Assembly (NCBI GenBank): GCA_945933905.1
Contig: CAMEQX010000010.1
Coordinates: 1-13,890, forward strand
Reading direction: 5' to 3'
DNA: 13,890 nucleotides
Source of the DNA: an uncultured Clostridia bacterium
GTDB lineage: Bacteria; Bacillota; Clostridia; Oscillospirales; Ruminococcaceae
The position numbers and the translations under genes are program-made. Shown one piece after another: positions 318-13,827 of this stretch (the first letter of the stretch is position 1; every line of letters starts with the position of its first letter). The notes below the pieces were generated by a model. It did not search any database. It was given only the letters and a program-made list of their open reading frames with translations, and had not been told where the DNA came from.

Positions 318-1544
318 TTACCTCACCGTCATCTTTCTGTTTCGCTGAATGAAAAAATAAACCACGCCGCCAACGACAAGAACGCCGAAAATTATCACGA
401 AATCCAGCGGATTTATCGCGGAAACTGCCTTAATTTCCACGCGCGCGGAGGTGGTGTTTCCCGCGGCGTCCGTGGCGGTAATACGGTAAATCCCCGCGCC
501 GAGAAGCTCGGTTGTGCTGCTCGAAATCTGTCCGTTTTTCGTTACGCGAATGGAACATTCCGTGTCCGAGGTCACAAAAACGCGCTCGCTGAAAATGACG
601 TCTGTTGTGCCGTTGAAATACAGCACAGGCGGCGTTATATCGCGAGATAGCTTAACACTTCTTGTCGTGTTGCCGTTTTTGTACTCTATAAAATATTCAC
701 CCTCGCCGTTCAAATCCGCAAAATTTCGTTCCGTAACAGGAACGTCTTTCCCGTTCAGCGTAATTCTCGTCAATTCAAACCCAAACGGCGCCTGAAAAAT
801 ACCCAAGCGATTTGTCGGCTTTGAAAAAAAGTTGAACGAAAAATACCGCTTCTCAAGCCGCCCGTCGCTGCCGTAACAGGTGAAATCTATTTTGTACGCG
901 CCGTCCTCGGTTATCAGACCGCTTGTCGAAAGCGAGCAGATTTTCCCGTCGCGCGTCATCGAGCAAACAACATTTTCGGGCACGGAAAGCTTCGGCATAA
1001 AGCTCACCGTTTCGCCGTCCAGCACGTTTGTTTCAAAAATTTCGCCGTTTAAAAAAGTATGACGAAAGGTCTCGCCGTCACCGTTTTCAAGCGAAACTCT
1101 CCCCGAAATAACCGTCTCTGCGGGTGCTGCCGACTGCTCGCCAATTTCCACGGCAAACCGCGCCTGAACCGAGCCGCTTGCGTTTCTCAGCTCGTGCGAA
1201 ATCGTCACCTCGTACACGCCGTCCTCCGTGAGAAAAACCTCCTGAGACTGCTCAAGAAAGCCGTTTGCGCTGTTCACGAGAATTGAAATATCGTCCTCCT
1301 CAGTGCCGACGAGCAGAATTGACGTGAAATTTTCGCTGTCGGAAAGCACCTCGGACGCGTAGAATTTCGCGCCGTCGGGAAACGCGTAAAAATACATCAT
1401 CGTTTCCTCATCATAGCTGCGCGAAACGAGCGAAAGGTCGCTTGAAAAGCTCGGTTTTTCGCTGTCGGCGAAGCAAACGAGGCTCATCAAAATCATCGTC
1501 AAAACCGCAGTAACAAGCGCCGAAAACGCCTTTTTAAAGCTCAT
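318..1544 (-). CDS. Secreted membrane-anchored four-repeat (Ig-like) protein, second copy
   Basis: A 408-aa protein. The frame could begin further upstream (1634), but ATG at 1544 is preceded by AGAGG at a good distance and starts a clean signal peptide (MSFKKAFSALVTAVL..., likely cut after VCFA, residue 26). The body shows four repeats, each ending in a G-x-Y-hydrophobic strand: GVYEV (109-113), GAYKI (215-219), GEYFI (282-286) and GIYRI (351-355). The last repeat carries DITPP and TDAAGN, typical of bacterial Ig-like/beta-sandwich surface modules. A single transmembrane helix (about 380-400) and a basic tail (QRNRKMTVR) anchor it, with the body outside the cell. It aligns repeat by repeat with the product of 8976-10403 and lacks only that protein's acidic linker. 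It overlaps the upstream gene by 11 bases (ATGAGCTTTAA). Function is inferred to be an adhesin or outer-face scaffold of the T4SS; the family is not identified. Confidence 0.85.
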   Translation of the reverse strand: MSFKKAFSALVTAVLTMILMSLVCFADSEKPSFSSDLSLVSRSYDEETMMYFYAFPDGAKFYASEVLSDSENFTSILLVGTEEDDISILVNSANGFLEQSQEVFLTEDGVYEVTISHELRNASGSVQARFAVEIGEQSAAPAETVISGRVSLENGDGETFRHTFLNGEIFETNVLDGETVSFMPKLSVPENVVCSMTRDGKICSLSTSGLITEDGAYKIDFTCYGSDGRLEKRYFSFNFFSKPTNRLGIFQAPFGFELTRITLNGKDVPVTERNFADLNGEGEYFIEYKNGNTTRSVKLSRDITPPVLYFNGTTDVIFSERVFVTSDTECSIRVTKNGQISSSTTELLGAGIYRITATDAAGNTTSARVEIKAVSAINPLDFVIIFGVLVVGGVVYFFIQRNRKMTVR

Positions 1545-1938
1545 GGGAAACCTCTTTTTGACGCGCCATTTCGCGCGGTTTTTGCGTGAGCCGCGGCGGC
1601 TCATACATATTTGCCTCGCGGAGAAGTTCCTCAAAGGTCATTTTCACGCGGTACTCGCTGTCGCCGTGAACGCGCTCTGCACGCGGCTTCGCGGCATTTC
1701 CCGTTTTTTCTGAAGCGCGGTAAAACGTGGTTTCCTCGCGCTGTTTTTCCTCGGAAAAATCGAGTTTTTCTTCGTCAACAAAATCGTTCTCGGGAGCGAT
1801 TTTCTCGATTTTTTTAGCCGCAGCGCGCTGTTCCTCAAGCGGCGGCAAGCCCTCTTTTATCCGCGCTTTTTCCATTCGCAGCACGGAAAGTTCCTTTTCC
1901 CACTGCGCTTTGTGTTTCGGGTTGTCAAAATATCCCAT
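1534..1938 (-). CDS. Small charged cytosolic protein of unknown function
   Basis: A 134-aa protein starting at ATG 1938, with AGGAG nine bases upstream inside the end of the preceding lipoprotein gene (stop at 1940-1942, one base away). It has no signal peptide or membrane helix. It is rich in Lys, Arg and Glu: the N-terminus (GYFDNPKHKAQWEKELSVL, then an Arg/Lys/Glu-rich stretch to about residue 45) looks like an amphipathic helix, possibly coiled coil. The middle is acidic and probably disordered, and a short possible helix (MTFEELLREANM) lies near residues 100-111. The 3' end overlaps the start of the next gene by 11 bases, so the two are translationally coupled. I do not recognise a family. 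Its position among machine genes suggests a soluble accessory factor, for example a chaperone or a partner of the VirB4/VirD4 ATPases, but this is inference only. Confidence 0.8.
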   Translation of the reverse strand: MGYFDNPKHKAQWEKELSVLRMEKARIKEGLPPLEEQRAAAKKIEKIAPENDFVDEEKLDFSEEKQREETTFYRASEKTGNAAKPRAERVHGDSEYRVKMTFEELLREANMYEPPRLTQKPREMARQKEVSHEL

Positions 1939-1939
1939 A

Positions 1940-2617
1940 TCACTTTTCTCCTGTAATCATTTTCCCGACAATTCCGTTCACCGCGCCGAAAAGCTCGGGT
2001 TTGCTCCGCGAAACCAAAATCCCGAAGCGCTCCGGCTCAACGTCCGCAAGCGCGCAGCAGCGCAGTTCGGCGTTCCCCGAAAGCAGCTCCCGTGCCTCGT
2101 CCTCGAAGCAGACATACGCTTGGATATCGCCTTTTTTCAAGAGCTCCGCCGCGTTTTTCGTGTTGTTGCAAATCAGGTTTCCGTCCGCAACGATTGAAAG
2201 AAGCGAGCGCAAAATGCTCTCGGGAAGCCCCGCGGACGCGCCGATAACCCGCCCCGTGAGGTCCTCCGTGCCCGTCACGGAAAGCGTTTCGGTGCAGACT
2301 GCGTAAATCCGCTTTTCAGCCACGGGCATCGTCATATAAAAGTTCAAGCCGGGGTCGTTGGACTCGCTGAACGCGCCGACCGCGATGTCCGCTCTGCCGT
2401 TCGACACCATTTCAAGCGCGGTGGCTCTCTCGGCTTTGCTGATTTCAAGCGGCGCGCCGATTTCACTTGCGATATATTTCGCAATTTCCTCGGAATTTTC
2501 CAGCTCAAACGTAATCGCAGCGCGAAGTTTTCCGCTTTTCAGCATCGCCTCGGTTGGCGTTTTGCAGCCGCTTAAAAGCAGCACCGCCGCCAGTATCAAC
2601 AGTGAAATTTTTTTCAT
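1940..2617 (-). CDS. Lipoprotein resembling family 3 solute-binding protein
   Basis: A 225-aa protein. The longest frame starts at 2698 inside virB4, but ATG at 2617 gives a textbook lipoprotein signal peptide: MKKISLLILAAVLLLSGC, with lipobox LSGC and the lipid-bearing cysteine at residue 18. The mature region follows the pattern of SBP_bac_3 periplasmic-binding proteins: GKLRAAITFE near the start, then IAKYIASEIG, then the SNGRADIAVGAFSES segment that matches the conserved 'sGkaDi' region, then a second lobe around GRVIGASAGL. It is slightly short for the family and the canonical amino-acid ligand residues are not obvious. No ABC permease or ATPase accompanies it, so transport is unlikely. 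A ligand-sensing or structural role at the cell surface within the T4SS is inferred. It starts one base after the virB4 stop with only a weak ribosome binding site, suggesting coupled translation. Confidence 0.82.
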   Translation of the reverse strand: MKKISLLILAAVLLLSGCKTPTEAMLKSGKLRAAITFELENSEEIAKYIASEIGAPLEISKAERATALEMVSNGRADIAVGAFSESNDPGLNFYMTMPVAEKRIYAVCTETLSVTGTEDLTGRVIGASAGLPESILRSLLSIVADGNLICNNTKNAAELLKKGDIQAYVCFEDEARELLSGNAELRCCALADVEPERFGILVSRSKPELFGAVNGIVGKMITGEK

Positions 2618-2618
2618 A

Positions 2619-5306
2619 TTATTCCGTGAAAAGTTCTTGCAAATCGTCCGAAGCCACGATATCAACGCAGGTTCGGTTGGACGGCGCAGTAACAACAAAC
2701 GCGCGCCCTCGCGGGTTGTTTATAATCTGGTCCTGCTCGGTTTCGTTGATTTCGCCCGCCTTCTCGTACAGCTTGCACAAATCGTGCATATCATTCGGCG
2801 CAAGCGCGAAAATAAACGAATACTGGCACGCGTTGATGATTGCCGTTGACTTGCGCGCGAGTTCCTCCGTGCCGACAAAGTCCTTGATGTTCTGCGTGAT
2901 TATAATTTGCATACCGTTGTACTTGCGGATACGCTTCGCAAGCTGGTACATAAAGTCAAGCGCAATCGGGTATTTTTCGTCAATGAAAACGTGCGCCTCG
3001 TCGATTACGATGATTATTTTTCTGTTCGCCTTATGCAAGATATTGTAGTCGCGGTTCTTTATAATCTCATTATCTAGGTATTTCAGCACCAAAAGCATCT
3101 GCGCGTTTGCAATCGTGTTGTTGCGGTTTGCAAGCAGCGACTGGAAGTTGAACGCGATGAAATTTTCCTTCGTGGTGATGGTTGACGGGTTGTTCCACAA
3201 GTGCGCGTTTCGTCCGCCGGTGGAGAATTTCGACACATAATTGAGCAAAATTCGCAGATTATTTTTGTTGTAATCGCTGGTGGCGCGCTGGAAATCCGTC
3301 AGAATTTTGTCGTAAAGGTCGTCGAAAATGGGGTAATCCTCGGGCTCAAGCGTCGAGAGGTCGGTGTCCGCGTCGATACCGCGCTCCGCGTAAATTCTCG
3401 GGAAAAGGTTGTTCAAATACTCGAGCGCGTCGTTTTCGGTCTCGGGCAAAATCTGCTTGAAGAACTCCTCGAGGAACTGCAAATGCGCGTTAAAGCTGTT
3501 TGACGAGCCCTCTTCGTCGTCGGAAACGCCCGTTATAATCTGGAACGGATTGAGCGTGCCCTCGGTCGCTTTTCCCACGTCAATCATCTTGCCGTGAAGC
3601 TTTTTCGCAAGCGCGCCGTACTCGTTTTCGGGGTCGAGAATGAAGATTTTGCTGTTGTCGGCAGCGAGATTTGACAAAATAGTTTTGGTAGCAAACGATT
3701 TACCGGAGCCCGACTTACCGATAATCGCCATATTGCTGTTTACGCGCTCGCTGTCGCGCTGGAAGAAGTTGACGAAAACGGGGTTGCCGCCGGTCGTGCC
3801 GAAGCACATTCCGTCCTTGTCCTGAAGGTACGGATAAACGAACGGAAACGCCGCCGCGATTGACGAGGAGTGAATTCCGCGGCTCTTTTTCTTGAACGCG
3901 TCGCACGCCGAAATGTGCGAACTCGTGTAAACGTCAAACGTCTGCATAAACAAATCCTGCGTCTTGAAGCCCGCTTCCGCGAGGTTGCGCTTGATTGTCT
4001 TTTTCAGCGAAACATAGGTTGACGAAGCAGCCGTGGAAGCGCCCTCGGACGCGCGTTTTGAGCGCTCGGTGAGCTCGTAATCGTAGATTGTAATATAAGT
4101 GTTGACGTCATAAAGCGACTCGTTTTCGCTTTGAAGCATCGAAAGGAGCTCCGCCAAGGACTCGATATTTTCGTTGATTTCCATAAGTCGAGAAACCTTG
4201 CCCGTCTGCCCCGCCTGTCCGCGAAGTTCTTCGAGAGAGCGGTCAATTCGCTTGATTGACTGGTATCTTTCAACCGGCTTGAATTTCATCACAACGCGCG
4301 TGTTCGGCACGTTGAACAGGCGATAACCCCACGCGTTTCCGACAACGGACGGATAGTCGAGAATTTTCAGATTGTGCGTGATAAGACCGTCATATTTCAC
4401 GGTTCGCGCGGTCATTTCAATCTTCTTCGGGATAATCCAATCGAGATAATCCTCGGGCTTGATTTTGTCCACCTCGCGCTCGTCAAAAACCTGATTGTAC
4501 TGGTACTTGAGGAAAATAGCGAGGTCTCTGCCCCTGAGCTGATGCGCGTCAAGTCCCGCGCTTCTGAACTGACCGACAGCGTTCCTCGTCATTTCGGACA
4601 AAATGGGTTTTTTCTTGTCGAACAGCACGAGATAATGGAACGGGCGGTAAACCTTATCGTCAAAGTTGATTTTCTTGATTTCCTCAATTCTGCCGTAGAT
4701 TATCTCAACGCGCCTTGTGAGCTCGTCTTCGCTGATGATGTCGTCAAGAAACGCTTTTTTGAGGTCGTCAATTTTCCTGCGCTCCGTGCGGATATACTCG
4801 TCGTAAATCACGGGGCGGTCAATTTTCACGAACGCGCCTGTTTGGTCTTGCGTGATTGTGCGGATAATCGAGCCGATGTTGTGGTCGATAATCGAGTCCT
4901 GCCGAAGCTCCGTCAAAAAGCGAAACTCAATCGACGGAATTTCGATAACCGTGGCGTAATATTCCTTGTTGTAACTGATGTATCGGTCGTCAATTTCGGT
5001 GAACGGTGTGATGTCCTCAACGCTGATTGCGCCGCTTTTTTCCTTCTTCCTGAAGAAGACGTGCGGTATCGCGAAGTGCCGCAAAAAGTGGATGAAAAGC
5101 ATATAGATTTTCTCGTCGTCAAGCGGCATCAGCAAAAACACAAACACCACCAGCACGCCTATCGCAATCCACCATCTGTACGGAATATTCGAGGTAATCA
5201 GCGCAACGCAAACAAACGCGCCGAAAAGCCCCACAAGCACGTCAATTATGGAAACGCCCTTGAAAAGTTCGGTTTCAACCTTGGTTTTCTTTGGAATTAT
5301 TCGCAT
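2619..5306 (-). CDS. virB4: VirB4-type T4SS ATPase with N-terminal PrgI-like membrane domain
   Basis: An 895-aa hexameric-type secretion ATPase that energises pilus or channel assembly and substrate transfer at the inner face of the membrane. Residues about 12-60 form two hydrophobic helices (FKGVSIIDVLVGLFGAF and WWIAIGVLVVFVFLLM) preceded by IPKKTKVE, resembling the small PrgI/VirB3-like protein that is usually a separate gene just before virB4. A long N-terminal VirB4 region follows. The ATPase core has Walker A GKSGSGKS (530-537), the downstream LDPENEY segment (557-563), Walker B IIIVIDEAH (764-772, catalytic Glu 770) and the ITQN motif (803-806), all intact. AAGGTG lies seven bases before ATG 5306, and the gap to the upstream gene is 17 bases. 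The length is typical of VirB4 plus the extra domain. Assignment as a VirB4 family ATPase is firm; the PrgI relationship is judged by pattern only. Confidence 0.96.
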   Translation of the reverse strand: MRIIPKKTKVETELFKGVSIIDVLVGLFGAFVCVALITSNIPYRWWIAIGVLVVFVFLLMPLDDEKIYMLFIHFLRHFAIPHVFFRKKEKSGAISVEDITPFTEIDDRYISYNKEYYATVIEIPSIEFRFLTELRQDSIIDHNIGSIIRTITQDQTGAFVKIDRPVIYDEYIRTERRKIDDLKKAFLDDIISEDELTRRVEIIYGRIEEIKKINFDDKVYRPFHYLVLFDKKKPILSEMTRNAVGQFRSAGLDAHQLRGRDLAIFLKYQYNQVFDEREVDKIKPEDYLDWIIPKKIEMTARTVKYDGLITHNLKILDYPSVVGNAWGYRLFNVPNTRVVMKFKPVERYQSIKRIDRSLEELRGQAGQTGKVSRLMEINENIESLAELLSMLQSENESLYDVNTYITIYDYELTERSKRASEGASTAASSTYVSLKKTIKRNLAEAGFKTQDLFMQTFDVYTSSHISACDAFKKKSRGIHSSSIAAAFPFVYPYLQDKDGMCFGTTGGNPVFVNFFQRDSERVNSNMAIIGKSGSGKSFATKTILSNLAADNSKIFILDPENEYGALAKKLHGKMIDVGKATEGTLNPFQIITGVSDDEEGSSNSFNAHLQFLEEFFKQILPETENDALEYLNNLFPRIYAERGIDADTDLSTLEPEDYPIFDDLYDKILTDFQRATSDYNKNNLRILLNYVSKFSTGGRNAHLWNNPSTITTKENFIAFNFQSLLANRNNTIANAQMLLVLKYLDNEIIKNRDYNILHKANRKIIIVIDEAHVFIDEKYPIALDFMYQLAKRIRKYNGMQIIITQNIKDFVGTEELARKSTAIINACQYSFIFALAPNDMHDLCKLYEKAGEINETEQDQIINNPRGRAFVVTAPSNRTCVDIVASDDLQELFTE

Positions 5307-5323
5307 CGCTAATCACCTTTTCG

Positions 5324-7336
5324 TTAAAATTTGCCGCTGTCATTTTTGTGGTCATTTTTCCTCTTCAAAAGAGGGTCGTCAAGATTTGATGCCTTGTTAT
5401 TGCTGCTTGACGAGCTTGTATAACTTGTTGACGAACCCGCAGAAGATGTTCCCGAGCCGCCGTAATTATCGCCTGTAAAATGCGTTGAGCCGCCCGATGA
5501 ACCGCTTGTGACGGTTGAATTTTTTGCGCTCTCAAGCGGGTCAACCGTCTTGACAACATTCGCGGACTCGCCTGTAAACTGACTTGAGCCGCTTTCCGAG
5601 CCCGAAGAGGACGAGCTGCTTGCGTTCTTTGCAGCTTCAAGCGGGTCAACATTTTTCACGATATCCTGAGCTTCAAAATCCGTGCTGCTGCCGTCATTAA
5701 AGCCGTTGCCGCCTTCCTCGCCGAACAGGTTTCTCACGCCCTCAAACGCGTTTTCTTCGTCTTGGTAAGCGCTGCCGAGAGTGCCCGTTCTGAACAGCTC
5801 GTCAACGCTCGAAAGCGTATCCTCATAGTCCTGTTCAGCTTGGTAATCCGTGCCGAGCGTGCCCGTTCTGAACAGCTCGTCAACACTTGCAAGCGTATCG
5901 TCGTATTCCTTGTCGCTGAGGTAGTTCTTTTGGCGCGGCTTGTTGCTTTGCGGGAAATTGCCCTTGGTATTGCTTGAAGTGCCGCCGGTGAATTTCGAGG
6001 ACTTCCCCTTGCTCGAGCTGACGGAATTCTTGGACTTCGAGCTCATCTTGCTGAACGCGCTTATTCCCGCGCCCGCGAAAGCCTTCGCGCCCTTCATCAT
6101 ACCGCCCGCGACCATTCCGCCGAGCAGCGCGTTGTTCATATTTTCCTCCGCGGCAACGCTCGAGCTGATGATGCCCGTGAGCAGCGTCGAGGACTTGTAA
6201 ACCGCGAACATTCCGCCTAAAATGAACACAAGCCTGATTACATAGCCGCCCGTGATGTTCCCCGCAACCGAGTCAAACAGCTTCAGCTCGTCGCTCATTA
6301 TAACGGGAACCATCATCAAGAAAATTCGCAGTCCTATCACCGAGCCGAAGCCTATAAGAATTCTCGCGATAAAGCTTTCCCGCCATTTTCTGAATTTTTC
6401 GCCGTCGTCAAGCACGATTGTTGACACGAAATACGGCGAGGTGACGTACAGGATAATTACATCGAAAATTCGCTTTATAAACGTGAACAGGCAGGCTATC
6501 ATCACAATCGACATAAAGATTATCGAGGCATAGCCGAGCAAATAGTCAACGTGCGAAACGTGGATTTTTACGCCGAAGGTTATGTAATCCATTCCTTCAT
6601 AAAGCAGCGAATTCCACGGCTCGTTCATCTGATTTGTGCTTGGATTTATGAACGGCGTAGGCGGGTTTCCGCGACCCGCGTCCATCGATGAAATCGCCAA
6701 AACCCAGCGCCCCAGCGAAGCGTCGCTTCCGCCGCTTATCGCAGAGCAAGTCTGCTTGAGAACGATTGACGCAAGGCTCACGCCAACAATCGCAATCGTC
6801 GGCACAAGCAAAAACGCAATCATTGTTTTCGCCACGGAATTCAACACTTTTCCGACAGGGCGTTTCCCCTCGAAATCGAAGTCCAACGTCGAGCGCATAA
6901 CCGAGTAAATCGCGAAAATTATCGACAATCCGAGCGCGATAAAGGTTATGGAAACAATGGCGTTTCGGATAATGTCGTTATTCATAAAGTACTGCAAAAG
7001 CGTGGTTTGCGTATCCTCGCCCGCCGCTTCCGAATAATACGTCACGTCCTTCAAGCCAATCAGCACGTCAAATCCGCTTTGCAGCTGGTCCAGCAGCCAT
7101 AGCCACTGACAGTAGCCGTTGTAGATAAACGAGAAGAAAATGTCCGCGATATTCGCGATGACAATGTTCCACAAAAACTCAAAAACCGGCATCAGAAGCG
7201 GGATTACGATTGTGTTCAAAATCCACTCGAATATGGAATTGAGTATTTTCGACAGCCAACTTATTATCGGGTCGAAAATCTTGTCGCAAACCCAATCGAA
7301 TACGCTGTCAAATATTCCTAGCGATTGTATCGGCAT
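5324..7336 (-). CDS. VirB6/TrbL-like polytopic T4SS protein with repeat-rich tail
   Basis: A 670-aa membrane protein, start ATG 7336 with AGGAGG nine bases upstream. Several hydrophobic segments span about residues 25-75, 125-148, 170-195, 268-300, 323-347 and 362-390. The KRPVGKVLNSVAKTMIAF block (158-175) and the ILYVTSPYFVSTIVLDDG...FRKWRESFIARIL block (295-327) are shared with the neighbouring gene at 7357-8946 and are typical of Gram-positive VirB6/TrbL-like channel proteins. From about residue 395 the protein is hydrophilic and low in complexity: a basic Ser/Lys stretch, two copies of a 26-residue unit containing VDELFRTGTLG (485-495 and 511-521), two copies of a 35-residue unit with VDPLEAAKN/VDPLESAKN (563-571 and 598-606), and Ser/Gly-rich runs. 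The N-terminal half would form the membrane channel; the tail, with its charge and repeats, may bind partners. It is separated from virB4 by 17 bases. Confidence 0.9.
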   Translation of the reverse strand: MPIQSLGIFDSVFDWVCDKIFDPIISWLSKILNSIFEWILNTIVIPLLMPVFEFLWNIVIANIADIFFSFIYNGYCQWLWLLDQLQSGFDVLIGLKDVTYYSEAAGEDTQTTLLQYFMNNDIIRNAIVSITFIALGLSIIFAIYSVMRSTLDFDFEGKRPVGKVLNSVAKTMIAFLLVPTIAIVGVSLASIVLKQTCSAISGGSDASLGRWVLAISSMDAGRGNPPTPFINPSTNQMNEPWNSLLYEGMDYITFGVKIHVSHVDYLLGYASIIFMSIVMIACLFTFIKRIFDVIILYVTSPYFVSTIVLDDGEKFRKWRESFIARILIGFGSVIGLRIFLMMVPVIMSDELKLFDSVAGNITGGYVIRLVFILGGMFAVYKSSTLLTGIISSSVAAEENMNNALLGGMVAGGMMKGAKAFAGAGISAFSKMSSKSKNSVSSSKGKSSKFTGGTSSNTKGNFPQSNKPRQKNYLSDKEYDDTLASVDELFRTGTLGTDYQAEQDYEDTLSSVDELFRTGTLGSAYQDEENAFEGVRNLFGEEGGNGFNDGSSTDFEAQDIVKNVDPLEAAKNASSSSSSGSESGSSQFTGESANVVKTVDPLESAKNSTVTSGSSGGSTHFTGDNYGGSGTSSAGSSTSYTSSSSSNNKASNLDDPLLKRKNDHKNDSGKF
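5519..5662 (-). repeat. Two-copy 105-bp (35-codon) repeat in the VirB6-like tail
   Basis: The 14-base string tcaagcgggtcaac occurs at 5532-5545 and again at 5637-5650, exactly 105 bases apart. It encodes the core of IVKNVDPLEAAKN (residues 559-571) and VVKTVDPLESAKN (594-606). Each is followed by a serine-rich stretch ending in FTG (QFTG, HFTG). A weaker third version, NLDDPLLKRKN, lies at 651-661, closer to the C-terminus. The period is a whole number of codons, so the reading frame is kept. Confidence 0.8.
5761..5916 (-). repeat. Two-copy 78-bp (26-codon) tandem repeat in the VirB6-like tail
   Basis: Two direct copies, 5761-5838 and 5839-5916 with period 78 bases, share long identical blocks such as gtgcccgttctgaacagctc. 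They encode the YDDTLASVDELFRTGTLG and YEDTLSSVDELFRTGTLG units. A degenerate third unit (AFEGVRNLFGE, residues 530-540) lies just after. The high DNA identity suggests recent duplication or conversion. Confidence 0.85.
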
Positions 7337-7356
7337 TATCGAAAACCTCCTCTCCG

Positions 7357-8946
7357 TTACTTCTTTTCTTCATCATCTTTGTTGTCCGAGCCGCCCGATG
7401 AACCTAGGCTCTTGCCCATTTTCGCGACATTTCCGAGACCGCCGCCGCTTCCGCCCGTGAAGGCATTTCCCGCGCTCTTTGCAGCGCCCTGAGCCGCCGA
7501 AGCCGCGCCCTGAGCCGCAGAAGCCGCACCCTTAGCAGCCGTTGCCACGCCCTTCGCAGCAAGGCTTCCTCCGCCTGTCGCCGCCGCCAAAGCCGCGTCC
7601 TTAGCGGTGTTCGCAGCCATCTTCACCATTCCCGCAACCACCATCGCAGACGCGCGGTCAGCCGCAGCAACCTCCGGATTTATTACCTCAAGAATGGTCG
7701 TGTTGGACTTCCAAGCCGCGTACATACACCCTATCACGAATATAATTTTCAGCGTTGCGTCAAGCGCAACGTTGTCGCTGAACGAGAAATTCGAGCTCAT
7801 TATCATCGGAATGAAAATCATCACGAGATTCATCGAAATCACAATTCCAAAGCCCGAAAGCAGCTTTCCTATGAACATCTCGCGCCATCTCTTGAAGGTC
7901 ATTCCGCCATCAAGCGGCATTGTTGCAACAAACAGCGGCGATGTGATGTACAAAATAACAACCTCGATTATCTTTCGGATAAACACAAACATCGAGCAAA
8001 TCATAATCAGAATTATTCCGAGACTTGCGATGTAAACCAGCGGATAATTGTACAAGCTCTCAAACATATTCGGGAAAGTTTTCGCGTTTTTCGACAGGTC
8101 GTCAAGCGAGAAATCCGTCTTTCCGTCCTTGTTGTTTTTGAGGTTATTCGCGGACTTGTCGGCAACCTTCACGTCCTCCGCCTGACTTTGAAAAATTGCC
8201 TGAATATTTTCGAGGTCGAGGTCGGGGTACATATCGAAATCGGCAAGATAATGCGCGGGATTGTAGATGCTCTTTTCACCGCTGAAATACGCCGCGCGCT
8301 TGCCCGATGTGAAAGACGCTTCCTTATCGTCGTCATCGCCGAAGGTGCCCGACAGGAACAAAATTGTCGAGAGCTTCGGTGCCTCGTCCGAGCCCGTCAC
8401 GCCGATTATCGCGTTTTCCGTCGAAACCAAAATCGCCGACGAAAGCTGCGAGCCGAAGAACATCATAACCGGCACAATCATAAACGCAATGCACGATTTC
8501 AGCGCCGTTTTCATAACGTGGCTGATGGGGCGCTTGTGCTCGAGAGCATACGAGCCCATCGACTTTGCCACCGAGTAAATCGTGAAAATAAAGCAAATCG
8601 CGACGCCCACAAACGTCACCGCAATCATCGCTTGCTTAATTCCGTCGTTCGTGAGAAAAACATCAAGCAGATACATTTCGTTTCCGTCGTTTTTCACGGT
8701 TTGCGTTCCTGCGAAAATGTCGAAGAAATCCTGAAAAACGTCAACAATGTGCAGAAGATAAAGCAGAATTCCCTGCAAAAACGTGCCGCATATTAGCATA
8801 AGTCCGTTCAGCACAACGGAAAACAGGAAGTTGAACAGATATGTAATCAGCATGGAAAACAGCTCGAAAGCCCAGCTCAGCGAGTCTGCAATCGCGCCCG
8901 TTACCGTGGAAACCCAGCCCAAACTGTCCAGCAGCACAGGTGTCAT
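7357..8946 (-). CDS. VirB6/TrbL-like polytopic T4SS protein with Ala-rich tail
   Basis: A 529-aa membrane protein. A GTG three codons upstream (8955) is in frame, but the ribosome binding site AGGAGG (8955-8960) overlaps that GTG and stands eight bases before ATG 8946, which is therefore taken as the start. Hydrophobic segments lie at about 28-70, 104-128, 150-178, 303-335, 362-385 and 399-413. Shared blocks with its neighbour at 5324-7336 include KRPISHVMKTALKSCIAF and VILYITSPLFVATMPLDGG...FKRWREMFIGKLL, marking it as a VirB6/TrbL-like component of the membrane channel. A long polar loop of about 110 residues (roughly 183-293) separates the two membrane halves and is longer than in the paralogue. 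The tail is Ala/Gly-rich with a seven-residue repeat (463-491), then Gly/Ser and a DDEEKK end. It sits 20 bases before the next VirB6-like gene. Confidence 0.92.
   Translation of the reverse strand: MTPVLLDSLGWVSTVTGAIADSLSWAFELFSMLITYLFNFLFSVVLNGLMLICGTFLQGILLYLLHIVDVFQDFFDIFAGTQTVKNDGNEMYLLDVFLTNDGIKQAMIAVTFVGVAICFIFTIYSVAKSMGSYALEHKRPISHVMKTALKSCIAFMIVPVMMFFGSQLSSAILVSTENAIIGVTGSDEAPKLSTILFLSGTFGDDDDKEASFTSGKRAAYFSGEKSIYNPAHYLADFDMYPDLDLENIQAIFQSQAEDVKVADKSANNLKNNKDGKTDFSLDDLSKNAKTFPNMFESLYNYPLVYIASLGIILIMICSMFVFIRKIIEVVILYITSPLFVATMPLDGGMTFKRWREMFIGKLLSGFGIVISMNLVMIFIPMIMSSNFSFSDNVALDATLKIIFVIGCMYAAWKSNTTILEVINPEVAAADRASAMVVAGMVKMAANTAKDAALAAATGGGSLAAKGVATAAKGAASAAQGAASAAQGAAKSAGNAFTGGSGGGLGNVAKMGKSLGSSGGSDNKDDEEKK
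7484..7567 (-). repeat. 21-bp (7-codon) direct repeats encoding an Ala-rich tail
   Basis: Units at 7484-7504 and 7505-7525 differ by a single base; 7526-7546 is a more diverged copy and 7547-7567 is weakly related. They encode AAQGAAS/AAKGAAS-type heptads in the VirB6-like protein. The seven-residue spacing of small residues could give a long helix, and the near identity of two units points to slippage or recent duplication. Confidence 0.75.
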
Positions 8947-8954
8947 TCTGTTCA

Positions 8955-8960
8955 CCTCCT
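8955..8960 (-). promoter_or_regulatory. Ribosome binding site deciding the start of the first VirB6-like gene
   Basis: The minus strand reads AGGAGG here, eight bases before ATG 8946. The alternative GTG start at 8955-8953 shares its first base with this site and so cannot use it. This argues for the ATG. Confidence 0.85.
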
Positions 8961-8975
8961 CTCAAGAATTTCGCG

Positions 8976-10403
8976 TTATCTGATGTTGAATTTTTTGCGC
9001 GTGATGATGAAGAAAACAAGCCCCGCGACAATCAGCGCGCCGCCGAGAACTACCGCGACAATCGCCATTCCGTTCATCTGGTAAATTATATCAAACGTCT
9101 GCGAGAAGCTGTTTCCCGCCTTGTCGTAAACCGTCACATAGTATTTTCCCGCGTCCGTGAGTTCAAGCGTTTTCTTTATCGTTTCGCCGTCTTTTATTAT
9201 CGTGTAAGTGTCGATATCGTCCGAAATAAGCTCGATGAAAACCGTCACGCCCTGCGCTTTTCCTTCGCTGTCCAGCCCGTTCACCTTGAACTCGGGCGGC
9301 GTGTTGTCAAGCGTGAAGCTCTCCGTCCACTTGTAAATTCCGCAGGAAATATCGAACGTGTATTCGCCCTCAGCGCCGAGGTCAACAAAGGTTTTGTTCG
9401 CGCGGATTTCGTTTTTCCCGAACATCGCCTTCTCGATTTCGCAGCCCTCCGGCACGGCGTACTGCGTGATTGAACCCGCGTATTCGCCTATAATCGTGAA
9501 CCCGAATTTCGCGGGATTTTCGTCGTCGCCGTCGTAAATCAGGAGCGTATATTCGCCATCTTCGGTAAGCGCGTTGCCAAAAGCATAGCTGGTCTGTTCC
9601 TCGCCGTCTTTCAGCAGTTCATACTCGATAGTGTCCGGATACTCAAGTTTAACATTGTTCGTGGTTACCGTTCCCGCGGGGACATTGCTGAAAAACACCG
9701 TGCCACCATCCGTGACAACGCGGATTTTTTCGCTTGTCGCGTACTGCGAGAGAAGGCTTGCCTTGTCGTTTTTCGGGAGCAAAATCCCCTGCTCCTCGGT
9801 ATCTTTATCGTCGGGATTTGACGGTTTTTCACCCTCTCCGCCCGAGCTGTCGGAGCTTGTATCCGAGCCGTCCGATGAGATATCCTCGCTGCTGTCACCC
9901 GAGCTGAACTCGCTATCCTCGGAGCTTTCCGAGTCCTCGATATCCGAGCTTTCGCCATCGGAATCGCCCTCCTCGGACTTCTCCGTTATCCAAAAACGAA
10001 ACAGCCCGTAGTAAACCTCGTCCTCGCTCCCGCCGAGCAAATCTTTCCCCTCAACCATCAGCGTGAGCGAGTATTTTCCCGGCTCCTCAAACGGCTCGCC
10101 GCGCGTGTATTCGGACTTTTTCCCGTCCTTATCCACGGTGACCGAAACGGTTTCCGGCAAGTCAAGCGTGACCGGATAATCGATAACCGCGCCGTTTGAA
10201 ATGTTGCTGTAAAACACAATCTGCTTTGCGATTATCTCCTCGAAAAGCGTGGAATTAACCCTATTCTGAGCAATCTCCGTGTAAATATATTCGATTTTTT
10301 GTTGGCTTTCCGCAGTACTTTCGTCCGTTTCGGCAAACGCAGTAAGCGAAACCGTTCCAAAAACCGCGCAGGCAAGCGCCGCAGTCAGAAATTTCTTAAA
10401 CAT
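8976..10403 (-). CDS. Secreted membrane-anchored four-repeat (Ig-like) protein with acidic Ser/Asp linker
   Basis: A 475-aa protein, start ATG 10403 with AAAGGA eight bases upstream. The signal peptide (MFKKFLTAALACAVFGTVSL) is probably cut after AFA at residue 24. Four repeats each end in a G-x-Y-hydrophobic strand: GKYSL (109-113), GEYTL (283-287), GEYTF (346-350) and GKYYV (419-423). The last carries DNTPP and YDKAGN, as in bacterial Ig-like surface modules. Between repeats 1 and 2 lies a Ser/Asp/Glu-rich, almost certainly disordered linker (about 142-204). One transmembrane helix (about 445-467) and a basic tail (TRKKFNIR) anchor it with the repeats outside the cell; no LPXTG sortase signal is present. 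It is paralogous to the product of 318-1544. Its place between virD4 and the VirB6 genes suggests an outer-face T4SS component or recipient-contact adhesin. That role is inferred. Confidence 0.88.
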   Translation of the reverse strand: MFKKFLTAALACAVFGTVSLTAFAETDESTAESQQKIEYIYTEIAQNRVNSTLFEEIIAKQIVFYSNISNGAVIDYPVTLDLPETVSVTVDKDGKKSEYTRGEPFEEPGKYSLTLMVEGKDLLGGSEDEVYYGLFRFWITEKSEEGDSDGESSDIEDSESSEDSEFSSGDSSEDISSDGSDTSSDSSGGEGEKPSNPDDKDTEEQGILLPKNDKASLLSQYATSEKIRVVTDGGTVFFSNVPAGTVTTNNVKLEYPDTIEYELLKDGEEQTSYAFGNALTEDGEYTLLIYDGDDENPAKFGFTIIGEYAGSITQYAVPEGCEIEKAMFGKNEIRANKTFVDLGAEGEYTFDISCGIYKWTESFTLDNTPPEFKVNGLDSEGKAQGVTVFIELISDDIDTYTIIKDGETIKKTLELTDAGKYYVTVYDKAGNSFSQTFDIIYQMNGMAIVAVVLGGALIVAGLVFFIITRKKFNIR

Positions 10404-10422: not shown

Positions 10423-12411
10423 TTAGTTTTCGTTTTCGCCGAGAACTATGCCGTTTCTCTCGGCAAGGTCGTAATAAACCTCGTCGGGAAAGAACGCGTT
10501 GCTGCGAACCTCGGTCAAGTCCATTGTGCCGAACTGATACAGGTCGCACTTGTAGCTCGGCGTGAATTTCGTTTTCAGCGGATAGTTACCAAAAGTCACG
10601 ATAATCGCGTTTCCCGTGTCGGTTTTGTTGTTGATTTTTTGCAGCTCGGACGGGTAGATAAGCGGGCGCGTCTGAATTGACGTGCTGTAACTCGCCTCGC
10701 CCTCCTTCGTTCCCATTGAGCGCGAAACGCTCGTTGTGGAAACGGTGCAGTTTCCGCAAAGTTCCGAGAATTCCTTGCACGTCTCGATATCGTTTGAACC
10801 GATGAACATTTTCATACCGCAGTTGGATTTTACGATATCTCCGACCGTTTTTCCGTAAACATTGTCGAGCTGCGCGTAGGACTGCACGACCATATTGAAC
10901 CAGATTTTTCTCGAACGTCCTACGGTAATCATCTTGTCGAACTTGTCGATTTTCGGCATATTTCCGAACTCATCGAGAATGAAATAAACGTTTCTCGGAA
11001 GCGACAAATCCTCGCGCGTGGAGGCTTTTTTGATGAGCGCCTTGTAGATGCACAAAATGAACGCCGCCGCAAGCGTGTGGCGCGTGTCCTTTTCATCGGG
11101 GATTTTGAGGAACAGCGCGGTCGGTTCGTCTGCGAAAATTGCGGGGTCGATGTCCGTGTTTGACGTCAGCGAGCAGATGCCCTCGTCGTTGAAAATAGAC
11201 AGCTTGTCGAACGCGATTGACATATAGCTGGCGAGCGTATTTTCCGCGGCGGAAAGCACCTGTTTACTCAGCGTAACCGCCTTTGAAAGCACGTTTCTGC
11301 CGTAAAAATAGTTGCGCAGAGCCTCGAAATTGTTGTCCGAATTTCCGAGCGCTTTGTTGACGTTGAAGAAGTTGAATTTTTCCTTCGTCATACCGAGTTC
11401 TTCGTTTTCGCTGTCCTCGAGCATTCCGATTATTGTCGCCATAATAATCGAGCGCGCGCCCTTTTCCCACACGGGATCGTCCTTGCTTTCAATCGGGCAG
11501 ATAACGCTTACAAGGTCGTTCAAATCCTCGTAAACCTCGTCGTAAATCTTCTGTCGCTGCACCTTGATTACGCCGATAAGCTCCTTGCGGACAGCGTACG
11601 CCTTGCCTTCATATTCGTACCACTCGTCCTCGTAAAGCTCGGGCGGATTTACCAGCTCCAGCCCCGACTCCTCGGCATTGTCGGTTCTGCAGTAAATTTC
11701 GTTGCCCGTGTTCACATACTCTTGATAGCGGTCGTACAGCTCTCCGAGCGGGTTCCAGCGGAACGAAGAATACGGGTCGCGCAAATCCAGCACCATTACC
11801 TTGTACCCGCGCTCCTGCAAAAATTTGCTGTGCATTTGAAACAGCTCGCCCTTCGGGTCGGTGCAAATCATCGACGAGCCCGCGCCCGATTTCGCGAGAA
11901 TTTGAATCATCGGATTGATGAAAGTTGTCGTTTTACCGGAGCCGGTTGCACCGATTATAAGGCCGTGCATTGGAGACGCGAGATTTACGTGAAGTCCCTT
12001 TTTATCGTACCAAGCTCTCACGGGAATTCCGTCTTTTTTCGACTCGCCGAGCTTTGCAAACTCGTGCGGAGCGAAGTTGAAATCGCGCTCCTTATCGGTC
12101 ATAAAACGCGAATTTTCCAGCGTTGAGTCGGTCACGGCGTTCTTCTTATTCGCGCCGAGAAGGCTCTGCCGTGTGCGCTTGAAGCTGTCGGGGCGCGTTG
12201 CCGCGTACAGCACGATGATGACGATAAGCACAATCAGCCCGTACAGGTAATTCAGCGGATTAAGCAGCACCGCGGGATTTAAGAAAAGCGAAAAATCCTT
12301 CGCCGTAATCGCGGGCATCAGGTTGTCGAGCATCGCTCCCGCAAGATACGCGCAGAAAACTAGCGCCACAAGTCCGATTGCCGCCGTGCTGTAAATTTTC
12401 TTCAAATTCAT
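10423..12411 (-). CDS. virD4: VirD4/TraG-type T4SS coupling ATPase
   Basis: A 662-aa coupling protein that recruits substrates (in conjugation, the relaxase-DNA complex) to the T4SS channel and pumps them using ATP. A TTG at 12429 is in frame, but GGGAGG (12419-12424) seven bases before ATG 12411 marks the start. Two N-terminal membrane helices (about 10-28 and 61-80) are followed by the ATPase domain with Walker A GATGSGKT (154-161), DPKGELF (195-201), Walker B VYFILDEFGNMPKI (485-498, with DE at 490-491) and the VVQSYAQLDNVYG segment (518-530). Between FRWNPL and the DDPVWEKGARSI segment is a stretch with extra, acidic/Tyr-rich sequence (about 228-285) that seems longer than in typical family members. 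All catalytic motifs look intact. It abuts the protease gene upstream and lies 19 bases before the repeat-protein gene. Confidence 0.96.
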   Translation of the reverse strand: MNLKKIYSTAAIGLVALVFCAYLAGAMLDNLMPAITAKDFSLFLNPAVLLNPLNYLYGLIVLIVIIVLYAATRPDSFKRTRQSLLGANKKNAVTDSTLENSRFMTDKERDFNFAPHEFAKLGESKKDGIPVRAWYDKKGLHVNLASPMHGLIIGATGSGKTTTFINPMIQILAKSGAGSSMICTDPKGELFQMHSKFLQERGYKVMVLDLRDPYSSFRWNPLGELYDRYQEYVNTGNEIYCRTDNAEESGLELVNPPELYEDEWYEYEGKAYAVRKELIGVIKVQRQKIYDEVYEDLNDLVSVICPIESKDDPVWEKGARSIIMATIIGMLEDSENEELGMTKEKFNFFNVNKALGNSDNNFEALRNYFYGRNVLSKAVTLSKQVLSAAENTLASYMSIAFDKLSIFNDEGICSLTSNTDIDPAIFADEPTALFLKIPDEKDTRHTLAAAFILCIYKALIKKASTREDLSLPRNVYFILDEFGNMPKIDKFDKMITVGRSRKIWFNMVVQSYAQLDNVYGKTVGDIVKSNCGMKMFIGSNDIETCKEFSELCGNCTVSTTSVSRSMGTKEGEASYSTSIQTRPLIYPSELQKINNKTDTGNAIIVTFGNYPLKTKFTPSYKCDLYQFGTMDLTEVRSNAFFPDEVYYDLAERNGIVLGENEN

Positions 12412-12418
12412 AGTTTTT

Positions 12419-12424
12419 CCTCCC
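12419..12424 (-). promoter_or_regulatory. Ribosome binding site deciding the virD4 start
   Basis: The minus strand reads GGGAGG, seven bases before ATG 12411. It lies downstream of the in-frame TTG at 12429, which has no such site and begins immediately after the stop of the protease gene. The shorter virD4 product is therefore preferred. Confidence 0.85.
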
Positions 12425-12429
12425 GACAA

Positions 12430-13413
12430 TTATTCGAGGATTTTTTCGGCTTTTAAATCGCCGAGCAATGTCCTAACGCAGAAAAAGGCAGTTATTCCGC
12501 CGAAAATTAGGTATATGAGCTCCGCGACAATGTTGTCGAAAAGCACCTTGTACGCGTCCGTGTTCATCAGCAAAAGCATCGGCACGCTTGCTAAATTGAA
12601 CCCAATGTGCATCAGAAGCGGGTATGTGAGGTTGTTGTATCTTATGCGAACCAACGTGAAAAATCCGCTGCTCACAAGCGCCACGGCAATCCAAACCGGC
12701 TGAATATGCGGCAGCGCAAACGCCACGGTCACCACAATCACCACGGCTTTTTCGGGGAACGCGCGTTTTAGCGTGTGGACCAAAAATCCGCGGAACATCA
12801 TTTCCTCGCAAAGCGGCGCGAGAACCGCGATGTACAGCAAGCTCAGCGCGATATTGTCCGTGTAGAGCAGGCTTTCCGTGCCCGCGCTGTAACTTTTCAC
12901 AAAGCTGTCCGGCAGCGGCAAAATTGCCAGCAGCGCCGATGTTGAAAGATTGAGGCAAACTCCCGACAAAACGCATAACAAAGCGGGTTTGCGGCTGATT
13001 AAGCGCGGGTGAAACTCCAGCATATCCTTCACCGTTTCGGTTTCGGGATGCTTTTTTCTTTTGCGGATGTAGTGGTTCATCAGGTAGAAAAAGTACACAA
13101 AAAATCCCATTATTGAGCAGAGCAGCTTGAGTGTGCCACTGTTCTGAAGCGCGTCGTTCGAGAAGATGATGAAGAACATTTGCGGGAAGAAATAGAACCC
13201 GAAATACAGCCCCACCGCCGACAAAATTGAGGTGATTATTATGTATTTTCGCGAGTTTCGGTTGATGATTTGGCGGCGTTTTTTCTCGCGTTTTTTCTTC
13301 TCCGCAAGAGCCGCTTCTTCGCTGTCGTCAGCCTCCTCGACCTCCGCTTCAACCTCGATTTCTTCGGCAAAATTCTCGAAATCGGAATTTTTTCTCTGCT
13401 TTTTCTTTTTCAA
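12430..13413 (-). CDS. CPBP (CAAX-type) family intramembrane protease
   Basis: A 327-aa polytopic membrane protein of the CPBP/Abi family (Rce1-like glutamic metalloprotease fold). The three conserved motifs are present: EEMMFR (Glu203, Glu204, Arg208), FALPH (Phe232, His236) and HIGFN (His269, Asn273), so an active enzyme is expected. The first 55 residues are highly charged: a Lys-rich start, an acidic stretch of Glu/Asp/Ala, then a Lys/Arg-rich stretch. They are probably a cytosolic tail. About seven or eight hydrophobic segments follow between residues 57 and 315. The start is TTG at 13413, supported by AAGGGTG seven bases upstream; no better ATG is near. It lies between the pilin and virD4 genes, downstream of a terminator-like hairpin. 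Substrate is unknown. Processing of the pilin or another T4SS protein, or protection of the host cell, are possibilities by inference only. Confidence 0.9.
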   Translation of the reverse strand: MKKKKQRKNSDFENFAEEIEVEAEVEEADDSEEAALAEKKKREKKRRQIINRNSRKYIIITSILSAVGLYFGFYFFPQMFFIIFSNDALQNSGTLKLLCSIMGFFVYFFYLMNHYIRKRKKHPETETVKDMLEFHPRLISRKPALLCVLSGVCLNLSTSALLAILPLPDSFVKSYSAGTESLLYTDNIALSLLYIAVLAPLCEEMMFRGFLVHTLKRAFPEKAVVIVVTVAFALPHIQPVWIAVALVSSGFFTLVRIRYNNLTYPLLMHIGFNLASVPMLLLMNTDAYKVLFDNIVAELIYLIFGGITAFFCVRTLLGDLKAEKILE

Positions 13414-13506: not shown

Positions 13507-13827
13507 TCAGTTCGATGTCGCTGCGGTTGTTGCCCACTGTTCCATCGCGGGAAGACCGATTTTCAGAGCAACAAGCAAAACAAATATAAGTACAAAGCCG
13601 ATTATCGCGTTTCTCAAACCGTGCTTCGCTTTTTCTCTGTCCTGAGGCTCTTCAGCTTTCGCGAACTTCACACCGAGGATTATGCAGAAAACTGCACCGA
13701 GCGCTCCGACAACAGCAAGCGCGGGACCCAAAATCATATCCAAAAGGTTGATAATCGGGTTCGTCATCTTCTCAAAGGGATTTTCCGCTCCCGAGGAAGC
13801 CGCAAGAAAAAGTAACATATTGTTCAT
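13507..13827 (-). CDS. VirB2/TrbC-like T4SS pilin subunit
   Basis: A 106-aa protein, start ATG 13827 with GGAG nine bases upstream. It has a short N-terminal hydrophobic stretch (MLLFLAAS), then two transmembrane helices (about 28-53 and 73-92). A short charged cytosolic loop (FAKAEEPQDREKAKHGLRN) joins them, and a small polar C-terminus follows. The two-helix layout, with G-V-K-F-A-K-A and the R/K-rich loop leading to IIGFVLIFVLL, is typical of VirB2/TrbC-like and related T4SS pilin families. It would be the major subunit of the conjugative pilus or channel. It has no long cleavable leader, as is common in Gram-positive versions. It is the first visible gene of the cluster and is followed by a terminator, fitting a product needed in excess. 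Assignment is by topology and pattern, not by a search. Confidence 0.85.
   Translation of the reverse strand: MNNMLLFLAASSGAENPFEKMTNPIINLLDMILGPALAVVGALGAVFCIILGVKFAKAEEPQDREKAKHGLRNAIIGFVLIFVLLVALKIGLPAMEQWATTAATSN

Follow-up and report, generated by a model that had tools for sequence, protein, structure and literature searches.

Gene content of the window and architecture of proteins A and B

The stretch of DNA analysed here (the window, 13,890 nucleotides; contig C10 of genome G000 of an uncultured gut clostridium, completeness of the genome 73.5%) carries on its minus strand the operon of a type IV secretion system (T4SS), with genes for a VirB2-like pilin, a CPBP protease, VirD4, a protein designated A, two VirB6-like proteins, VirB4, a lipoprotein, a 134-amino-acid (aa) protein, a protein designated B and the start of a further lipoprotein, in this order (Table 1). 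The genes for A and B sit at opposite ends of the T4SS core genes. The reading frame of A is open and codes for 475 aa, and that of B codes for 408 aa from the ATG at 1544 or 438 aa from the TTG of the mechanically called open reading frame (ORF). A and B are paralogues, as found by BLASTP (E 3e-16 in one comparison, 26% identity across 257 residues) and by profile-profile alignment with hhalign (26 rows each; probability 99.7%, E 6.6e-27, 396 columns).

The layout that an earlier note on this DNA (the original prediction) had assigned to both proteins, namely a signal-peptide-like start, four repeats, TPP and AGN motifs in the last repeat, a C-terminal helix and a basic tail, was confirmed. 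Hydropathy analysis gave one N-terminal and one C-terminal hydrophobic segment per protein (starting at about residues 5 and 439 in A, and 5 and 371 in B), the basic tail comes straight after the C-terminal helix (RKKFNIR in A, RNRKMTVR in B), and DxTPP and DxAGN are located at residues 366 and 427 of A and at residues 302 and 359 of B, respectively. The repeat motif had been worded as G-x-Y-hydrophobic, which fits only some of the repeats; in its correct form, G-x-Y-x-hydrophobic, it occurs exactly four times in each protein (at 109, 283, 346 and 419 in A, and at 109, 215, 282 and 351 in B), and at least four such motifs were obtained in 6 of 2000 residue shuffles of A and 1 of 2000 of B. The proposed one-to-one correspondence of the repeats held for repeats 2, 3 and 4 in repeat-level profile comparisons (E 1.4e-9, 1.1e-6 and 4.4e-12, respectively) and failed for repeat 1: that of A matched best its own repeat 2 (2.8e-13), then repeat 2 of B (1.1e-11), and repeat 1 of B at only 1.3e-5, and that of B likewise matched best its own repeat 2 (8.7e-10). 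The first GxY motif does lie at residue 109 in both proteins; since the length ahead of it varies among relatives, the shared number means little. The acidic linker said to occur in one protein only was located in A (Asp or Glu at 26 of 66 positions; Table 1); B is without it, and it varies among A-type rows.

Relatives, phylogeny and fold signals

Relatives at E<=1e-3 were collected from 5.8 billion proteins, giving 41 for A and 50 for B (7997 and 7999 candidates scored, respectively) with zero identifiers in common. Alignments of A-type sequences (A1, 26 rows), B-type sequences (A2, 26 rows), mixed sequences (A3, 11 rows) and short single-copy forms (A4, 9 rows) were prepared, the rows of A1 and A2 being picked for diversity from 42 and 51 sequences (the window protein and its matches), and A3 was used as the query of a third protein search, which gave 25 relatives.

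A tree built on the shared C-terminal region (40 rows) placed A (99/99) and B (100/100) in separate groups, which agrees with the claim of a duplicated and retained pair. A protein of the distant genome G452 grouped with A (98/93), and the other single-copy forms were divided between the two sides on weak or long branches. The tree is compatible with a duplication before or after the split from the single-copy systems.

For the fold, the signals were weak and below cut-off and agreed in direction. Big_13 (gathering score 27) gave 18.0 bits for B, 26.2 for P0060 and 14.5 for P0041, A was not listed, and neither A nor B reached the cut-off; BiPBP_C gave 22.9 bits for P0041 (cut-off 26.8). Precomputed PF19077.7 annotation was present on four relatives of B (P0060, P0061, P0065 and P0067). 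Sequence searches of the PDB with the A and B profiles gave chance-level matches only (1 and 10, respectively), those of the B profile including several antibody or NCAM chains (E 0.057-0.93). Taken together, these signals hint at an immunoglobulin (Ig)-like beta fold. No Pfam or NCBIfam model covers the A family.

Distribution and linkage to the T4SS

Among the 43 genomes of the genus, A and B were each found in the same four (G000, G031, G016 and G015), neither occurring alone, and close VirB4 proteins (93-95% identity) were confined to these four, the remaining VirB4 matches in the genus being 27-31% identical. As had been claimed, the pair is thus kept and tied to this T4SS within the genus, where A and B always occur together. 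The patchy presence of the cluster (4/43) suggests that it probably moves or is often lost.

Outside the genus, a single A-like match was obtained in each of five distant relatives (G400, G468, G095, G452 and G081), so that the pair is not supported as a general trait of this T4SS type, and the notion that it defines the type is rejected. The VirD4 of the window is 63-70% identical to those of the five relatives, and its VirB4 is 52-57% identical to those of four of them. The A-like gene lies immediately after VirD4 in G400, G468, G095 and G452 (loci L073, L074, L071 and L075) and immediately before VirB6 in G400, G081 and G452; in G081 (L072), VirD4 is about 9 kb off. The gene position is also retained by a three-repeat short form (314-319 aa). 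Both hydrophobic segments were detected in four of the five single-copy relatives; the fifth, G452, gave a signal for the C-terminal segment only. The single A-like copy in distant members marks A as the conserved part, which likely belongs to the core of this T4SS clade. B is the extra, apparently a paralogue specific to one lineage and grouped with a lipoprotein module.

At the order level (394 genomes drawn), VirB4 was matched at E<=1e-80 in G000, G031, G468, G095, G396 and G400, five of which carry an A-like protein. A1 gave E<=1e-10 in G000, G031, G468, G095, G400 and G452, and in all six the gene stands beside a VirD4 of the same family; the strong homologues are therefore not scattered among genomes without a T4SS, a result that covers the matches at this threshold. 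Weaker matches were found in seven more genomes with A1 (best 5.8e-10) and in nine with A2 (best 5.8e-8) and were excluded from the A-like counts, the strongest being in G470 (A1, E 5.8e-10, 874-aa frame); in a 10.9-kb stretch of G136, the T4SS proteins of the window were unmatched apart from a weak A/B match. A search of genome contigs with A1 gave three true loci (L033-L035) and one doubtful locus, on a contig of Candidatus Eisenbacteria (37% across 73 residues, E 1e-5), which was taken as a chance Ig-like repeat. No relative was found in viral contigs with A4 or A1, or in plasmids with A.

Two other explanations of the pair bear on this distribution. If A and B formed an obligate heteromer as the defining outer-face complex of this T4SS type, the retention of both in all four two-copy genomes, with neither alone in the 43, would be expected, and the two separate, well-supported groups of the tree would fit; however, one copy in five distant relatives means that such a complex cannot define the type, and we consider this explanation, which goes back to the original prediction, somewhat unlikely. 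Alternatively, B may act outside the channel, together with the solute-binding-like lipoprotein, the 134-aa protein and the large lipoprotein at the contig end, in a module for sensing or regulation. The four genes occur together in all four two-copy genomes, and the other three were unmatched in the scanned stretches of single-copy relatives; nevertheless, B is still built like A, with the C-terminal helix and the final VR, and such a module appears quite improbable to us as the site of its function.

Proposed role of A and B

We favour, with moderate confidence, the view that A is a core, membrane-anchored and outward-facing part of a distinct T4SS clade in walled Clostridia, forming a stalk or scaffold in the wall zone, and that B is a duplicate kept in one lineage, where it probably adds to the same channel a further ring or stalk, or a mixed one. 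To the observed homology, repeat layout, position of the A gene and co-occurrence, this view adds a putative beta fold, a predicted topology, and presumed contacts of A with the channel and with B. The signal peptide of A would be cleaved off to give a type I membrane protein, whose tandem beta (Ig-like) repeats would stand in the wall zone around the VirB6/VirB2 channel, at its outer face, and whose C-terminal helix and basic tail would anchor it in the membrane close to VirD4 and VirB6. B would have arisen by gene duplication and have been kept in one lineage with two lipoproteins and the 134-aa protein.

Several findings weigh against this view. Neither A nor B has a convincing Pfam or PDB match, so that the Ig fold is a prediction. 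A clade uniting A and B was not rejected (p-AU 0.092) and the branches are long, which leaves the timing of the duplication unsettled by the tree. In G396, which is 100% complete and whose VirB4 matched at E 1.7e-289, no A-like match was obtained with A4 and none was listed for A1 or A2 (the draw of 394 genomes being taken as the same); the contig that bears this VirB4 spans only 3.9 kb. G452 carries an A-like protein and VirD4 on a contig that ends before any VirB4, and G095 and G452 were not listed at all by A2.

As a further explanation, A and B may be cell-cell adhesins, Ig-like stalks that act outside the channel on partner cells, with two targets or in two mating steps. The Ig-like repeats and the long disordered linker would suit a surface stalk, and Gram-positive T4SSs often depend on surface adhesins. 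PrgB of pCF10 (Enterococcus faecalis), a surface protein of such a T4SS, has four Ig-like domains that have been proposed as a stalk (PMC10588982). Unlike PrgB, which has a polymer adhesin domain atop its stalk, A and B contain no adhesive head domain recognised by Pfam, NCBIfam or further scans, and the gene for A lies between those for VirD4 and VirB6. Moreover, the sortase sorting-signal models gave nothing over cut-off (for A, NF058670 at best with 13.0 bits of 32; for B, only a type IX secretion system-type model with 14.7 of 23), and the three-repeat short form holds the same gene position. The two-target adhesin of the original prediction thus gained no direct evidence; adhesion seems unlikely as the function of the pair, and the wall-zone scaffold is favoured over it.

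Comparison with known systems

Cut-offs of NCBIfam conjugation families, named after mycoplasma or Clostridioides genes, were passed by VirD4, the VirB6-like proteins and the pilin. The VirB2-like, VirB6-like and VirB4 proteins of the window match models of the T4SS of Mycoplasma and Spiroplasma integrative and conjugative elements (ICEs; Mbov_0395/0396/0397 and MMCAP2_0566), although VirB4 falls under its family cut-off (Table 1). Matches to VirB4 in plasmids comprised 103 records, all with less than 60% identity, the best ten being from Spiroplasma or mycoplasma (23-31%) and the remainder including Listeria, Priestia, Bacillus and one Oscillospiraceae. A single mycoplasma record was inspected, in which pilin, Mbov_0396, Mbov_0397 and Mbov_0399 follow each other in this order with no A-like gene between, and the A1-A4 profiles gave a best E of 0.14 on this record and one Spiroplasma plasmid stretch. 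Mycoplasmas are wall-less, and the lack of an A-like gene in this single element fits a wall-related role of A.

The VirD4 of the window belongs to the CD1115 family (Table 1), as in the CD1110/CD1115-type (Tn1549-like) conjugation systems; its VirB4 differs in being far under the CD1110 cut-off (154.9 of 325). VirB8/TcpC-like components have an N-terminal transmembrane (TM) anchor and an extracytoplasmic NTF2-like domain; in A and B, as judged from their sequences, the lasting anchor appears to lie at the C-terminus and the repeats follow the GxYx pattern.

Other surface or exported proteins of conjugative elements are alike in part. The ICEA of Mycoplasma agalactiae encodes the surface lipoprotein CDS14, which is required for conjugation (PMC6030558); it is a lipoprotein, in contrast to the helix-anchored repeat proteins A and B. 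TIEpLS20 (p34) of pLS20 and the Big proteins of R27 and pKAZ3 are multi-domain proteins, at the surface or exported, that aid conjugation; the former differs as a thioester-domain adhesin (PMC8092201), and the latter differ as high-molecular-weight proteins exported to the medium (PMC8730810).

Two further genes of the operon were noted. The gene for the solute-binding-like lipoprotein lies within a T4SS operon; in mycoplasmas, ICE uptake is under the control of a nucleoside-binding lipoprotein on the recipient side (PMC12892991), a parallel only. The CPBP protease gene is also inside the operon, and another adjoins VirD4 in the distant G452 (L075:3516-4358).

Table 1. Features of the window and members of the A5 family encoded elsewhere (cut-offs in bits).
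Feature	Position	Strand	Evidence or remark
VirB2-like pilin	13507..13827	-	NF045849 57.4 bits (cut-off 40, met); PF18895 42.1 bits (cut-off 26.6)
CPBP/Rce1-like intramembrane protease	12430..13413	-	PF02517 61.1 bits (cut-off 22.4)
VirD4 coupling ATPase	10423..12429	-	NF045973 (CD1115 VirD4 family) 298.3 bits (cut-off 250, met)
Protein A, 475 aa	8976..10403	-	Signal-peptide-like start, four repeats of putative Ig-like type, acidic linker, C-terminal TM helix, basic tail
Acidic Ser/Asp/Glu linker of A, residues 140-205	9789..9986	-	Sequence and alignment
C-terminal hydrophobic segment of A, residues ~445-468	9000..9071	-	Kyte-Doolittle
VirB6-like multi-TM protein a	7357..8955	-	NF045848 (MMCAP2_0566 family) 187.7 bits (cut-off 90, met)
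VirB6-like multi-TM protein b	5324..7336	-	NF045848 (MMCAP2_0566 family) 184.0 bits (cut-off 90, met)
VirB4 ATPase	2619..5306	-	NF045975 (Mbov_0397 family) 554.3 bits, residues 3-893; below cut-off 590
Lipoprotein, weak solute-binding-protein similarity	1940..2617	-	PF00497 22.4 bits, below cut-off 26.4
134-aa protein	1534..1938	-	Tail RVKMTFEEL at 1624-1650, 38 residues from end
Protein B, 408 aa, paralogue of A without linker	318..1544	-	ORF, alignments, tree
C-terminal hydrophobic segment of B, residues ~379-400	345..410	-	Kyte-Doolittle
Lipoprotein truncated at contig end	3..317	-	510, 511 and 533 aa in G031, G016 and G015
A5 family rows	L068:14943-16220, L069:1756-3063, L069:3380-4777, L083:1834-3120		Alignment A5
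A5 family rows, continued	L083:6754-8073, L082:16337-17662, L067:3861-5165, L067:5233-6636		Alignment A5

Candidate cargo with a common C-terminal tail

Paralogous proteins of 425-467 aa (the A5 family) are encoded beside the T4SS in G031, G016 and G015. Of the eight proteins in alignment A5, the seven scanned with Pfam gave at most weak sub-cut-off matches (DUF445 20.4 of 33.8, Granin 15.4 of 25); NCBIfam, applied to all eight, gave a single weak match (E 0.036), and the A5 profile had no match in the PDB. The alignment is poorly conserved save near the C-terminus, where R-x-[KR]-x-[ST]-F-x-[ED]-L is followed by about 30 polar residues. A regular expression for this motif was found in 13 of 349 ORFs from 23 stretches (the window, regions around the T4SS and remoter parts of those contigs). 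Its distance from the end was 34-44 residues in every case, and no ORF had it more than 90 residues from the end; the 13 comprise the eight A5 source proteins, three copies of the 134-aa protein and two small proteins, and the count is descriptive because the expression was set after the tails had been seen.

Among the 43 genus genomes, the A5 profile matched 8, 9, 8 and 8 stretches in the four genomes with this T4SS (best match per genome at E 8.6e-140 to 6.9e-162), several copies lying on contigs other than the T4SS contig; outside these, G037 gave one weak match (E 1.4e-4, G037:C1:269729-270184, 765-aa frame) and 38 genomes gave none. With a profile of the tail (A6, 17 rows), 32 matches at E<=0.01 were obtained, none of them outside the four T4SS genomes; 15 of the 32 were rows of the profile, and many of the other 17 are closely related to rows. 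The lowest E in the remaining 39 genomes was 0.029, and eight of these had a match at E<=1. A 934-aa protein outside the A5 family and the profile also bears the tail (L189:5176-7980, E 4.3e-5 in 320 ORFs). In fourteen tail proteins checked, no 19-residue stretch had a mean hydropathy above 1.6, the maximum being 1.51. Once their own rows had been removed from the profile, E was 0.018-0.027 for the 134-aa protein and its two close relatives (320 ORFs), and 0.031 and 0.37 for the small proteins of G468 and G095 (153 ORFs), where an unrelated match had 0.049; the tail likeness of these proteins is suggestive only. ORFs of 82 aa (L083:1463-1711 and L185:71-319) match only the C-terminal part of A5, and similar frames of 87-89 aa occur in G031 and G016.

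The A5 proteins may be regarded as candidate secreted substrates of the T4SS, and the 134-aa protein as a candidate adaptor or small substrate; it is also possible that the tail-family proteins are co-regulated intracellular proteins. We also put forward, tentatively and as somewhat less likely than not, that the operon encodes a chromosomal protein-exporting T4SS of walled gut Clostridia, acting instead of or besides conjugation, whose cargo would be a multi-copy family of about 425-1070 aa with the C-terminal motif as its signal, with the 134-aa protein as adaptor or small substrate and A and B as the wall-zone part of the channel.

In part the pair is ordinary, Ig-like proteins near a T4SS being already known; what is unusual is the conserved position of the A gene, the fact that no model exists for its family and the presence of the tail family in the same genomes. 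To our knowledge, little is understood of how Gram-positive T4SSs cross the wall. A, a conserved ectodomain protein whose gene lies between those for VirD4 and VirB6, is a concrete candidate for a wall-crossing part, and its role can be tested because lineages with one copy and with two exist in nature. If the tail family is indeed exported, these commensals would hold a protein-delivering T4SS with a readable signal by which cargo could be found.

Regulation, mobility and neighbouring loci

Genes for extracytoplasmic function (ECF) sigma factors were detected near the T4SS by Pfam in G031 and G468, in G095 (55% identical to that of G468), and, as judged from the sequence only, on contig C145 of G000 and in G016. 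Small proteins that match each other are encoded in six loci, the three scanned being STAS-domain proteins, and the T4SS surroundings of G468 also hold SpoIIE-type phosphatase and HATPase genes. ECF sigma and STAS/SpoIIE/HATPase partner-switch genes at the T4SS were recorded at L067:6670-7188, L074:12809-13297, L071:4368-4877 and L085:13455-18070.

Relaxases were searched for in eight genomes with PF03432 and PF03389 only, and no general absence is claimed: PF03432 was found in none of G468, G081, G400 and G095 and on other contigs in the four genus genomes, and PF03389 (MobA_MobL) was over cut-off on other contigs in G016 and G468, below cut-off in G015 and without a match in the remaining five. 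Past the shared close neighbours, the flanks of the T4SS differ between genomes; a 535-aa lipoprotein neighbour is common to G031 and G016, and a LuxR-type ATPase and a 263/306-aa protein are common to G031 and G015.

A second T4SS lies about 25 kb off in G031 (L078, G031:C8:562001-582000), its VirD4 and VirB4 being 27% and 25% identical to those of the window, respectively, and a recombinase-like gene recognised there by eye suggests a separate element. Gene order in the relatives suggests that contigs C145 (L185), C10 (the window) and C27 (L184) of G000, which are not joined, are neighbours, in the order LuxR-type ATPase, ECF sigma factor, two tail proteins with the 82-aa ORF, the window, and two more tail proteins.

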